48,225 bases of DNA from an uncultured Bacilli bacterium. Its GTDB lineage: Bacteria; Bacillota_I; Bacilli_A; RF39; UBA660. The number at the start of each line of letters is the position of its first letter. Position 1 is the stretch's first letter. Where the stretch lies: NCBI GenBank assembly GCA_947630575.1, contig CANRIB010000007.1, positions 1 through 48,225 on the forward strand. Reading direction: 5' to 3'. The position numbers and the translations under genes are program-made. The notes beneath the pieces were generated by a model that was not told the origin of the DNA, searched no databases, and worked only from the letters and a program-made list of their open reading frames with translations. Of this stretch, positions 70-11,113 are shown piece after piece.

Positions 70-1980
70 CTAAGCTATGTAGGGATTATTGATGGTTCCT
101 TTGTCTTCTCCACTAATGAAAGCAAATCTTGTATCGGCTTTCAAATTTATTACTGGACGGATACCATATGATTCATTTACTCTACTACCTGCGAGTTGAC
201 CATTCGCATACACACGGAACGTGATGGCCTCATTGCTGATATATATAGACGGAGACATTGCCCAATAACCTTGACCATTATATAGATAATATTTAAAATT
301 GTTAGAACCATAATATCCACCAGCAAATGATGCTTCATCCGCAGTGATTAATCCTATTGGATATTCTAGTTGTCTATTTCCTTTACTTGAAGTACTTATT
401 GTATATAAGTCTTCATCTTTTTTATTTGTTTTTTCACTGCATTTAAATGTTGGAATTTGCTTACTTGATCCTGCAGAATTTCCAGGGCCTACTATTCTTG
501 TATATGCTCCATAAAATGTTCGGTTTGTTCCTTCATTGCCATCTATTTCTGTTGTAATATTTGATGGCTGTCTATCATTACAGAATCCGGCATCTTTATC
601 AATTAGGTCTATTTCATCTGTTAAATTGCTTTTATACCAATCTTCTAATTGGTTTAATACATTACTTTTTGTTGTATATCCTCTTACTTGGCTATCATCA
701 CTCCATGTTAATCCTAAATATTTATTATCATTAGAAATCTCTTGATTTTGTATATTCCAATGTTGTTCTGGAACTGCTATACTATCTACATTATTTTTAT
801 CACCATTTGTATTAGCTGTTATTCCGTCATATATTATTCGAATGGAACCATCGCCATTTATTCGGATGATGCGCCAGTACATATCATTTCCTTGACCCTT
901 TTCACTTCCTGTTTTGCCAAATTTTATGTAATTATTGGTTACTGATCCTCTAAAATAATATGTTGTTCCGTCATCATCTGAACTCTCATATATTCCATTT
1001 TGATCCATATTGTATTGACCACAACCTGTATCATTATCATTACTATCACAACTTGGACCTGTAAATTCTTCTGTCAGTTTTCCTTCAGAATGTAAACCTA
1101 AAATATTTAATGTTTTTTCTGAAGCATTTAATTTATCATAATATAAATAACAACTTGTTCCATCTAAAGTTAGTCCCTTTATTTTAACTGTATTATCTGT
1201 TAAATCTGTTATTGCCTCTGCATTATTGCTACATTTACTTTCTACTATCGCATAATTATTATCTGGCATTTTTGTTGCTTCTTCATATTTTCCTGTTTCT
1301 TCATCTTTTATATATATTCCTAATATATTTATATCTGCACTTTTATTACTTATCTTGGCATGCACTTTTCCTTCAAAGTGTTGTCCTATATCTCCATTTT
1401 GATTTTTTAGTTCTTCACTTGTTAAGTTTGGATATTCAATTACTACATAGTAATAAACTTTTTCTCCTTCTGGTTTAGAAGTTATATATTGATTCTCTGT
1501 TATTTTAATTGTTGTTTCTTCTGTATGAATGATTTCTCCTTCATTTATTTTTTCTAATTCTTCAATACCTGTTATATTACATTCTTCATTTAAATATTGA
1601 ATACCATTTGTTACTTTCTTTTTTGGTGTACATGTTGCACTTACTTCTTTTTCTTCTGTTGTTTTATATACTTCATATTTTAAAGTTGTATTAAGTCCAT
1701 TTATTCCTTGCCATATTAGATTATACGCTATAAACTCATTTTCCCCCGTTGCCGTTACAGTTATCTTAGATACTTTTTTATGACCAGGATAAATGTTTGA
1801 ATCATCAAATTCTAATATTCCATCTATATCTAGTATTGATCCATTTACAGTCGCTGTTCTTGCTTCTGTTGTTGCTCCTGTTCCACTAAAAATAGTTTTT
1901 CCTACAAAGTATGCTAAAGATACACCTATTCCCAATATTAATACACTTAACAATATTATTACTCTTTTATTCTTTTTCAT
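70..1980 (-). CDS. Large membrane-anchored surface protein with variable C-terminal domain
   Basis: A 636-residue protein with a short basic N-terminus and one hydrophobic segment (about residues 6-27), so it is probably anchored or secreted. The middle (about 40-290) is a beta-rich extracellular region. The C-terminal half carries a domain shared with the protein at 9600-11081: YYFRG, WRIIRINGDGSIRIIY, AGFCNDR, TFKCS, IGLITADEASFAGGYY, YWAMSP and finally GIRPVINLKADT. The segment between YWAMSP and GIRPV differs greatly between the two proteins and is GC-rich, as in the C-type-lectin-fold variable proteins of diversity-generating retroelements (inference). Cys residues in the domain may pair. 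It starts with ATG after AAGGAGCC and has a strong promoter with an operator-like palindrome. A small hairpin overlaps the stop codon. The ligand is unknown. Confidence 0.8.
   Translation of the reverse strand: MKKNKRVIILLSVLILGIGVSLAYFVGKTIFSGTGATTEARTATVNGSILDIDGILEFDDSNIYPGHKKVSKITVTATGENEFIAYNLIWQGINGLNTTLKYEVYKTTEEKEVSATCTPKKKVTNGIQYLNEECNITGIEELEKINEGEIIHTEETTIKITENQYITSKPEGEKVYYYVVIEYPNLTSEELKNQNGDIGQHFEGKVHAKISNKSADINILGIYIKDEETGKYEEATKMPDNNYAIVESKCSNNAEAITDLTDNTVKIKGLTLDGTSCYLYYDKLNASEKTLNILGLHSEGKLTEEFTGPSCDSNDNDTGCGQYNMDQNGIYESSDDDGTTYYFRGSVTNNYIKFGKTGSEKGQGNDMYWRIIRINGDGSIRIIYDGITANTNGDKNNVDSIAVPEQHWNIQNQEISNDNKYLGLTWSDDSQVRGYTTKSNVLNQLEDWYKSNLTDEIDLIDKDAGFCNDRQPSNITTEIDGNEGTNRTFYGAYTRIVGPGNSAGSSKQIPTFKCSEKTNKKDEDLYTISTSSKGNRQLEYPIGLITADEASFAGGYYGSNNFKYYLYNGQGYWAMSPSIYISNEAITFRVYANGQLAGSRVNESYGIRPVINLKADTRFAFISGEDKGTINNPYIA
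154..252 (-). other. Candidate variable region of surface protein 1
   Basis: This codes for the stretch between the conserved YWAMSP and RPVINLKA motifs. I counted about 44 G/C in 99 bases, well above the surrounding gene. It aligns with 9672-9779 only through scattered positions (a shared TTC, GTG, GGT and CTC frame), while both flanks are well conserved. This is the expected place for a retroelement variable repeat, but no template repeat was found in the window. Confidence 0.45.
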
Positions 1981-8257: not shown

Positions 8258-9448
8258 TTAATATATATAACTTTCAGGAATATAGATTATATCTCCTATA
8301 TTTAAATTATAATCTATGTGTTTATTTATTTCTTTTAATTCATAAATAGATATTTGATAAGATTTAGCTATATTATTTAAATTTGTTTTATTTTTAACTT
8401 CATATTTAATTAAATCAGTGTTATTTAAAGGTTTAATAATTATTTTTTCACCAGGATATATTAAGTTCGGATTTTTAATATTGTTCCAAGTAACTAGATT
8501 AGATATACTAACATGATAAATGTTAGCTATTTTACTTAAAGTATCTCCTTTTTTTACTATATATATTTTATTAGTACCAGTGCTAGTGGTTTGATATTTA
8601 TATGATGTGATAATTTTTAATATTTCATTAGGATATATTAAATTAGGATTTTTTAGGTTATTTTCTTTTGCTATAGCGTAGATAGATGTTTGATATTTTT
8701 TGGCGATTCCATATAAGGTATTACCTCTTTTTACACGATAATAAACTATTTTGGTTTGTTCTTCAGGTTTTAGTTCTGGTTCTTTAATAGGGGTTTTGTC
8801 TGCTAAAAAAACTGCATTATCAAAATTATCACGATCAACATTGCCATTTATGCCTTTTACGCGGCCTTTATCGGTGTATTGCCAACCAATATATGTTCTT
8901 TTAGTTTCAGGTTTATCTACGCCATATTGGGCTATCCATAAAGGATAATTGGAAAATAATTCGGAACTAAAAGTAAAATCGGCATTGTAAGCATCACTAT
9001 AAACCATTGCTTTTTTATTAGTGGCTTTTTCTAAGGTTTCTAAAAAGGCAAATGATATATTATTTATTTCTTCTTTAGTTAAGTCGGGGAATCTTTCAAA
9101 ATCCATGGCAAGTAGACAATCTGGAGAAGTATCTTTTATTACTGATGCAAAAAAACGTGCTTGTTCTTTGGCTTCTTCAGTTGTTCGGGCAGTTACATAA
9201 TGATAAAAACCAATATTTAAATTAGCAGATTTAGCTTTGTTATAGTTTTCTTTAAATTTTTTATCTACATAGCTAAAGCCAGCACTAGTTCTAATGTACA
9301 CTATATCTATACCATCGCTTTTAACAGCATTAAAGTTAATTGTGCCTTGAAATTCACTAACATCAATACCATTTATAGCATTTACTTTTTTAGGTATAAA
9401 TATAAATAAAGTAATTATGAATAAAATTAGGATTGGTATTTTTTTCAA
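8258..9448 (-). CDS. Secreted GH25 lysozyme with three LysM repeats
   Basis: A 396-residue muramidase. The N-terminal signal peptide (about 1-24) precedes the GH25 domain (25-215), which has GIDVSEFQG with Asp29 and AMDFE with Asp116 and Glu118, matching the family's catalytic acidic cluster. Three LysM modules follow at about 236-280, 295-340 and 348-392, two of them sharing NPNLIYP. It should cleave MurNAc-GlcNAc bonds in peptidoglycan while held on the wall, in remodelling, separation or competition. It starts with TTG, 7 bases after AGGAGGTG. It is a single-gene unit with its own terminator, and it implies that the organism makes peptidoglycan. Confidence 0.93.
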
Positions 9449-9551: not shown

Positions 9552-9588
9552 CTTGCCTAAGAATAAAGTTTAGAGCGACTTAGGCAAG
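9552..9588. repeat. Perfect 10-base inverted repeat downstream of surface protein 2
   Basis: CTTGCCTAAG and CTTAGGCAAG are separated by 17 bases, just past the stop codon of the surface-protein gene and before the terminator hairpin. There is no T-run, so it is not a terminator by itself. GC-rich hairpins just downstream of variable regions are known for some retroelement targets and may mark the target site. Here that is only a suggestion. Confidence 0.5.
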
Positions 9589-9599
9589 TGTTATTTAAT

Positions 9600-11081
9600 T
9601 TATTGAACAACAAATGGATTACTTGCAGTTCCACTTCCTGTGAATTTTGTATTTGCTTTTATATTTATGACTGGACGCACACCGACGTTCGCGTTGCTCA
9701 CGGGAAGGTAGTTGTTGAGGCCGCCGCTTGAATCCACATAGAACACGTGAGCATAGCCGTTAGTGCTGAAGTAATGCGGAGACATTGTCCAATAAGCAGA
9801 ACATGTATATAAGTAAAATTGTTTATTGTCAGATTGATTATTATCACGGTTATAATATCCTCCGGCATGTACTGCTTCGTCTATAGTTATTAATCCTATT
9901 GGACTATTATCACCTGTACCATTATTAGTTAATAGTTTATGATTCCCATAATCTTCGTTACTTGGCGTTTTTGCTCCTGGAAGTGTAAATGTATCTTCTG
10001 TTTGACTACACTTGAACGTTGGTGTATGTTTTGAATTAGCTCTTCCGCTTGAATCCAATAATCTGCTCCATGGAGCATAAGCAGTAGCATTTTTCCCATA
10101 TCCCATTGCTGTATCACTACTCCACCATACATTAGCTTGAGTATTTATTTTTCTATCATTACAAAATCCTGCATTTGGATCTATGTATTGTTCATAGCTT
10201 GTTTTTAGATTTGTTTTATACCAAGTATCTAATACTTGTTTTATATCACTATCATAATTATTTGCATGAGCATCTTCATATCTAGTCGTAGGTGTAGTTT
10301 CTTTACCAGCACTACCTTTTCTTTCTGTTCCATACATATATCCTACATATTTATTATCATTATAATACGCATTATATGCTTTCGTTTGTAATTGACTTCC
10401 AGTTGTATTGTTATTCAAATATCCATCACTTGTTGGTGCAGTTTCTCCTGTCCCAGTATATATTATTCTTATTGAATTGTTTCCATTTATTCGGATGATT
10501 CTCCACCATATTGGTTCTCCATTTTCTTCTCCAAATTTTACCCAATTATCTTTTACTTTTCCTCTAAAGTAATAGGTTGTTCCTAAATCGTCTGTATCTG
10601 AATATAATTCTCCTGTATTATCTGCTGTTTCTATACCTGTAAATTCTTTTTGACCTTCTTGTGTTGTTTTACTCGCTACTAATTCAGTAACTGTTATTGT
10701 CTTATTAAAATATAATGTACATTTATCTAACTTATTTAAATTAGCTATTGTATGATTACCATTTATTGTTTTTAATATTGCTTGATTGTTTTTACCATTA
10801 TTATTTTTGCAAGAACTTCTTTCACTATCTATTGCATATTTTTCTGCTGATGGCATTGTATCTATAGGAGTTTCTTGTCCATCTTCTACCTTATACATCG
10901 ATAATATTTGAAAATCATATAGACTATAATTAACAATACCATTAACTATTTGGACACTTTTGGTTATTTGATATTTTGCTCTGCTATTTGTTATATATAT
11001 TATTCCTATTGCTAATACTATTATTGTTATAAGCATTATTATTTTTTTCTTATTTCCTTTACTTAACTTCTCTACTTTCAT
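9600..11081 (-). CDS. Membrane-anchored surface protein with GC-rich variable C-terminus
   Basis: A 493-residue paralogue of the protein at 70-1980. A basic N-terminus and one hydrophobic helix (about 14-34) anchor or export it. The shared domain carries YYFRG, WWRIIRINGNNSIRIIY, DPNAGFCNDR, TFKCS, IGLITIDEAVHAGGYY, YWTMSP and GVRPVINIKANT. The segment between YWTMSP and GVRPV is GC-rich and full of NNC codons. I chose the ATG preceded by GAGAGG; an upstream in-frame ATG would place the ribosome site inside the gene. A consensus promoter and a perfect palindrome precede it, and a two-domain XRE regulator is divergent from it. It is probably displayed on the cell surface as a binding protein. 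Confidence 0.8.
   Translation of the reverse strand: MKVEKLSKGNKKKIIMLITIIVLAIGIIYITNSRAKYQITKSVQIVNGIVNYSLYDFQILSMYKVEDGQETPIDTMPSAEKYAIDSERSSCKNNNGKNNQAILKTINGNHTIANLNKLDKCTLYFNKTITVTELVASKTTQEGQKEFTGIETADNTGELYSDTDDLGTTYYFRGKVKDNWVKFGEENGEPIWWRIIRINGNNSIRIIYTGTGETAPTSDGYLNNNTTGSQLQTKAYNAYYNDNKYVGYMYGTERKGSAGKETTPTTRYEDAHANNYDSDIKQVLDTWYKTNLKTSYEQYIDPNAGFCNDRKINTQANVWWSSDTAMGYGKNATAYAPWSRLLDSSGRANSKHTPTFKCSQTEDTFTLPGAKTPSNEDYGNHKLLTNNGTGDNSPIGLITIDEAVHAGGYYNRDNNQSDNKQFYLYTCSAYWTMSPHYFSTNGYAHVFYVDSSGGLNNYLPVSNANVGVRPVINIKANTKFTGSGTASNPFVVQ
9672..9779 (-). other. Candidate variable region of surface protein 2
   Basis: By count about 60 of 108 bases are G/C, roughly twice the window level. 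Codons are mostly NNC (AAC, AGC, GGC, TAC, TTC, CAC), the pattern expected if AAC codons of a template were mutated at adenines. The segment is bounded by the conserved YWTMSP and RPVINIKA motifs. No template repeat or reverse transcriptase lies in this window. Confidence 0.5.
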
Positions 11082-11113
11082 TATCAATCCTCTCTCTATG
11101 ATTATCAATCATA

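Follow-up and report, generated by a model that had tools for sequence, protein, structure and literature searches.

The window (the whole 48,225-nucleotide stretch of DNA that was analysed) contains two members of a family of genes for putative lectin-like surface proteins, both on the minus strand (Table 1). The start of the gene considered here is taken as the ATG at 11081; the open reading frame (ORF) tool gives a TTG at 11108. Towards its 3' end, between the encoded motifs YWTMSP and GVRPVINIKA of ORF 9600-11108, lies a segment (9672-9779) with a G+C content of 0.556, while the gene as a whole has 0.314 and the 48-kb window 0.263. When 108-nt windows were sampled over the 48 kb (n = 4010), 0.556 was reached solely at 9672-9779, and the maximum in the rest of the target gene was 0.417. 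Codons ending in C make up 19 of 36 in the segment and 26 of 467 in the remainder of the gene (Fisher P = 7e-13). The original prediction had placed a stretch of about 56 % G/C, with codons mostly ending in C, between these two motifs, and it was right on composition, codon use and position. It had taken the gene for a target of a remote or lost diversity-generating retroelement (DGR).

The lower edge of this variable repeat (VR), 9672, coincides with the end of GGTGTGCGTCCA. Beyond GGTGTGCGTCCA the VR (..GTCATAAAT) and the template (..AATATCC) part; likewise, VRs and templates both carry GGTGTGCGYCCA, followed by GTAATAAA in VRs and AATATCC in templates. By analogy with Bordetella phage BPP-1, GGTGTGCGTCCA is a candidate IMH-equivalent.

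The modelled part of the target protein, its C-terminal 364 residues, is predicted to be lectin-like with modest confidence (mean pLDDT 61). VIA-align matched this model to 9qa6 (residues 33-303, Z 11.6) and, at Z 3-5, to Legionella Lcl, CarF, Mtd variants, TaqVP and mammalian C-type lectins, a list that contains two known DGR targets. The lectin fold appeared in VIA-align only: Foldseek with the target model gave nothing below E 0.001, and a PDB sequence search with the protein gave no match. The VR thus lies where a DGR target carries it, at the 3' end of a gene whose product is C-type-lectin-like, with modest confidence in the fold.

The window protein had 57 matches within its own genome, and 49 ORFs had a readable VR end. 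Hairpins of a few sequence types recur 3' of target genes. In this genome a stop-spanning hairpin, seen at 16 of 49 targets, goes with good template match (P = 2e-5), and it was present at 2 of 40 targets in the sister genome G019; because it is rare there, a target-hairpin requirement like that of BPP-1 is not claimed. Many contigs (C7, C10, C11, C18, C20, C21, C26, C33 and C45) terminate no more than about 120 bases from the 3' end of a target, which indicates that assembly fails at these repeats and that copy numbers are lower bounds.

Table 1. Features of the window that bear on the target gene and its variable repeat
Feature	Position	Strand	Basis
Target gene: N-terminal membrane anchor, extracellular region and C-terminal C-type-lectin-like domain ending in the VR (predicted)	9600..11081	-	
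Predicted N-terminal transmembrane helix	10986..11051	-	Model helix (residues 11-32) and hydrophobic sequence
C-terminal domain, predicted C-type-lectin-like fold	9603..10694	-	AlphaFold model mf734b3e8b2a1, mean pLDDT 61
Variable repeat (VR) of the target gene	9672..9779	-	108-nt window of highest G+C; NNC-rich; homologous to paralogue VRs and cassettes
GGTGTGCGTCCA, G+C-rich 3' end common to VR and templates	9672..9683	-	VR and cassette sequences
Hairpin with 10-bp stem, CTTGCCTAAG..CTTAGGCAAG, past the stop codon; recurs behind many targets; may be a 3' UTR element or a feature of the target site	9552..9588	-	
Neighbouring gene: GH25 muramidase with LysM repeats	8258..9448	-	Pfam; context only
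Second member of the target family	70..1980	-	VR without fitting template, best score 2

Reverse transcriptases and the DGR operon

Three reverse transcriptases (RTs) were found in the draft genome to which the window belongs (1.33 Mb, 62 contigs), one of them DGR-type. It is encoded on contig C32, in an operon with genes for a MutS-like protein (msl) and bAvd upstream of it. The RT (370 amino acids) carries LPIGNMTSQL, which fits the DGR motif [I/V/L]GxxxSQ, and YMDD, and matched RVT_1 with 81 bits and phrog_1423 with 288 bits. The adjoining bAvd (117 amino acids), an Avd-type accessory protein as expected beside a DGR RT, scored 40.4 bits against PF22296, just over the cut-off of 40, and matched phrog_3206 ('Avd protein of DGR') at E 1e-13; with the NCBIfam model DivGenRetAVD it reached 38 bits, under the cut-off of 80. 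The RT sought in the genome is therefore present with both accessory proteins, and the retroelement is remote, being on another contig, but not lost.

A protein of 140 amino acids with MutS domain I is encoded in the RT operon (L002:2754-3176), and one of similar size occupies the same place in the operon of G196 (L363). From its domain and position it is a putative MutS-like DGR accessory protein.

The remaining two RTs were set aside. That on C51 resembles group II intron-type RTs, and that on C18 matches UG31 of the defence RTs; the gene for the latter, defence-like enzyme (L003, G000:C18:17496-20867) lies immediately past a C5 DNA methyltransferase gene. A retron was also rejected, as the RNA genes described below lie away from the RT and include VR-homologous sequence, and the retron_St85 model gave 47 bits against a cut-off of 235. 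RTs on viral contigs had only 27-31 % identity, giving no sign of a phage home.

In DGRs a template repeat within the RT cassette is typical, if not strictly defining. On the 12.9 kb of C32, DNA search, exact motif and covariance model all failed to detect a template cassette, and the motif was also absent from the RT loci of relatives. In G196, of another genus, the operon has a single cassette directly upstream of it.

Template cassettes and their distribution

VR matches in intergenic stretches without a target gene were the first sign of a set of stand-alone template cassettes. DNA search, exact motif and covariance model located 13 of these (T1-T13), all intergenic and partly in tandem, on C1, C2, C11, C13 and C16. 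The original prediction had not anticipated such a set of scattered template genes. In each cassette a TATAAT box usually comes first, then GGTTAATCT, and a spacer separates this from the template repeat. GGTGTGCG(C)CCAATATCC follows the repeat, and beyond it lie a conserved tail, AGATTAATC and, in most cases, a hairpin resembling a terminator. All have a GGTGTGCG(C)CCA end, after which come the conserved, structured 79-nt tail and the terminal closing stem. The cassettes are non-coding, with short ORFs at most. In another genome about 11 cassettes stand in tandem (L265, G013:C20:21500-26118), two of them identical over the part compared.

Several features point to a structured transcript. The 9-nt terminal arms pair at 9/9 positions in 87 of 111 cassettes from this and related genomes, compared with 11 of 555 in the shuffled-arm control, and compensatory arm variants occur (GGCTAATCT/AGATTAGCC and GGTTTATCT/AGATAAATC). 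For the inner structure, 97.9 % of cells were paired, with double changes in 11 of 16 pairs and slid controls at 35-43 %, in an alignment that was fitted to the structure model and is hence biased in its favour. An exact TATAAT lies 6-11 nt upstream of the 5' arm in 65 of 88 cassettes (background 4 %), and a terminator-like hairpin lies 3' of 69 of 88 (background 17 %). Promoter, terminator and covariation together suggest that the cassette RNAs are expressed. A search of Rfam with the cassette RNA matched no family.

Of the 36 genomes in the genus, 32 were matched by the RNA covariance model, with up to 26 copies (G013; 19 in G035); none of the 24 others searched was. Family-wide, G196 has four cassettes, the one noted above among them, and an msl-bAvd-RT operon with an RT of 51 % identity; when its VRs were compared with these four templates, only four being recovered by motif, none could be assigned. 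G167 gave one weak RNA match, with a terminal stem of different sequence in which pairing is retained. The relatives with names are uncultured Bacilli MAGs, several labelled 'Lapin', and Candidatus Caccenecus avistercoris.

A DGR RT is present in about 17 further genomes of the genus (78-91 % identity) and is decayed in several. The RT loci of G026, G006, G009 and G030 have in-frame stops in the DGR RT while templates and targets remain, a pattern suggestive of recent RT loss. Three genomes of the genus in which no RT was recognised also lack the RNA and retain target paralogues.

Adenine-specific differences, mosaics and turnover

VRs from this genome (n = 49) and from G019 (n = 40) were aligned to templates by likelihood, with one template base treated as mutable. 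A was the best mutable base for 39 of the 49 VRs here and for 31 of the 40 in G019, and in this genome the mutable-A model led those for C, G or T by about 800 log units. Pooled mismatch here was 0.467 at A, 0.079 at C, 0.071 at G and 0.054 at T; in G019 it was 0.463 at A, and non-A values over both genomes were 0.054-0.083. In six VRs that match T7 nearly perfectly, changes fall on 12-16 of the 31 adenines and on 1-3 of the 68 other bases, and base-agnostic alignment agrees for the same VRs. When 14 templates from the more distant species G013 were used instead, no VR scored above 60, compared with 14 for the genome's own templates. Template and VR pairs differing at template adenines, by which DGRs are recognised, were thus found in two genomes.

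About 15-20 of the 49 VRs fit no template, and the second VR of the window is among them; since no known template suits it, it may be old or lost. The flagged VR fits in part. Against T13 it is changed at 7 of 20 A and 3 of 51 non-A positions, against T7 at 12 of 30 and 6 of 66 (Fisher P = 7e-4), and treating it as a T13>T3 mosaic gains 18 log units. Templates with differences at their adenines exist in the genome, as had been anticipated, but none of the 13 cassettes is near-identical to this VR. As it fits no single template well, it probably has an older or composite history or derives from an unsampled template.

Per-template assignment is secure only for T7, T6, T13 and T3 here and for T7-, T13- and T4-type templates in G019. 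An alternative would be an ordinary multi-target DGR, in which T7 or an unassembled master is the sole working template, the other cassettes are decayed copies and the targets are simply paralogous. Most of the well-matched VRs have T7 as their best template, T7 retains the majority of its AAC codons, and T5 and T4 have no obvious TATAAT box, as such a system would lead one to expect. However, L092 fits T6 (11 of 27 A and 1 of 63 other bases changed) and not T7, to which it has eight non-A mismatches; L089 fits T3, as do several VRs in their 3' half; an insertion specific to T13 (FYNSGSSQYA-like) occurs in seven VRs of two species, two here and five targets in G019; and in G019 L345 and L317 fit a T4-type template with margins of 20 and 14. 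The RNA structure also covaries over all cassettes, and templates are conserved between species. A single working template is therefore improbable, albeit the strongest of the alternatives.

Many VRs are better described as mosaics. Over the single-template model, T13>T3 gained 42 log units and T10>T3 gained 34, and in both genomes many VRs gained more than 10, against a maximum of 4.6 in simulated single-template VRs; in poorly matched VRs such gains may reflect unassembled templates. The commonest 3' donor is T3 or its orthologue, and T3 homology covers the 3' part only. Breakpoints with a T3-type donor fall at position 46 or beyond of 111, presumably because T3 cDNA would be able to replace the 3' half only, which would give most of the mosaics.

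Comparison with G019 indicates that templates persist and VRs are overwritten. Between the two genomes, seven template pairs, joined by synteny or best match, differ at 36 of 566 sites within the template (1 of 85 for T7). Templates are thus conserved, and orthologous VRs come from different ones: L096_664 fits T7 and its orthologue a T13-type template, and L058 fits T4 and its orthologue a T7-type, the assignment in this genome (G000) being the weaker side in both comparisons. Self-mutation of templates was not evident among orthologous templates, as A was involved in 25 of 36 template differences but also in 45 of 70 in the tail.

It is very unlikely that the cassettes are non-coding VR copies, whether recipients or dead gene ends, of a template that was not seen. 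They do vary among themselves, in part at consensus adenines, but VR differences fall specifically on cassette A, the T7 repeat is a single base from its orthologue, coding capacity is limited to short ORFs, and promoter, terminator, structured tail and terminal stem are all conserved. Little more than a slight chance, similarly, attaches to gene conversion between paralogues, which would shuffle segments with no part played by reverse transcription, much as pilin or vls systems do. Many paralogues and mosaic VRs would suit such a process, and it may contribute to the mosaics; however, it would not alter A alone, and the large lead of the mutable-A model argues against it. That the segment is merely the G+C-rich end of a conserved or horizontally acquired domain would explain the local G+C shift but is hardly credible given the RT, template and VR evidence and residues that are variable, not conserved.

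A probable template-RNA library and its relation to known systems

The segment 9672-9779 is very probably a DGR VR rewritten from dispersed templates and belonging to one of about 50 paralogues that encode lectin-like surface proteins anchored in the membrane. By most tests applied to the sequences the system is a true DGR, and its architecture, which combines a single RT with a library of template RNAs and with dozens of targets, is new. It is likely, with somewhat less confidence, that this DGR is combinatorial, a conserved library of dispersed template RNAs (13 in this genome and as many as 26 in a relative) serving one RT, with dozens of surface lectins rewritten by different, successive templates, so that cassette-like template choice is added to adenine mutagenesis. 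Further templates, or a conventional RT-linked one, may be absent from the fragmented assembly.

In the proposed mechanism, each template RNA would be transcribed from its own promoter, closed by the 9-bp terminal stem and bound by bAvd-RT via its structured tail. The RT would then copy the template repeat with errors at A, and the cDNA would replace the VR of any paralogue with a GGTGTGCGYCCA end and upstream homology. As templates vary in length and in adenine positions, rewriting by successive templates would give each target a template-specified backbone plus random residues, while the short T3 would be limited to the 3' half and would account for most mosaics. The likely benefit would be fast variation of many surface ligand-binding tips.

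DGRs are generally described as one template serving one or a few targets. In pilin and vls antigenic variation, a library of silent donor cassettes produces mosaic expressed genes. The present system shares the donor library and the mosaics; unlike those systems, its donors would be RNA genes copied by an adenine-mutating RT, and its recipients number dozens.

Among DGRs, BPP-1 (brt, avd, TR, mtd) has an RT with Avd, adenine mutagenesis, a VR at the 3' end of a C-type-lectin-fold gene and structured RNA past the template repeat (TR), as here, and the predicted C-terminal model aligns to its Mtd variants (Z 3.2-3.5). However, its single TR lies between avd and brt in one cassette (PMC12875486), whereas here there are 13 separate template genes, none RT-linked, and about 49 targets. 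The TvpA DGR of Treponema denticola resembles the present one in serving several remote paralogous surface targets with one RT; the table of that study gives a single TR and no more than seven targets for any genome, and multiple TRs occur between clones in individuals, not within one genome (PMC4891356), unlike the 13 templates and about 49 targets here.

Targets are also diversified in trans in Thiohalocapsa PB-PSB1, with several complete DGRs (PMC10907252), and in Trichodesmium, with 18 TR/VR-homologous loci and two RTs (PMC8867640). In both the templates are at DGR loci, unlike here, and the accessible portions of the two reports mention no library of free-standing template-RNA genes. As here, more than one TR per genome was found in the MetaCSST survey, where some genomes have two TRs and six VRs and an atypical case has six TRs, non-A substitutions and VRs merged in one ORF; no RNA gene family is described in the sections available (PMC6642488). 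Excerpts of a cyanobacterial study give 76 remote targets across 21 genomes (PMC7517822). In the full-text literature searched, which included few subscription papers, neither a dispersed template-RNA gene family nor DGRs in this bacterial group are described.

In this system the template has turned into an RNA gene that stands alone and exists in many copies, in most cases equipped with a promoter-like box, a terminal stem and a terminator of its own, an arrangement that uncouples RT, template and target. The RNA covariance model finds templates without a nearby RT, which RT-anchored surveys would miss. Natural templates that vary in length and adenine pattern make RNA recognition by DGRs, cDNA reach and mosaic formation testable, and the set may aid laboratory diversification tools. 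As about 50 genes and 13 RNA genes are maintained in a reduced 1.3-Mb genome, the trait is probably important to these gut bacteria, which may use varied surface tips to meet host glycans, phages or other cells.
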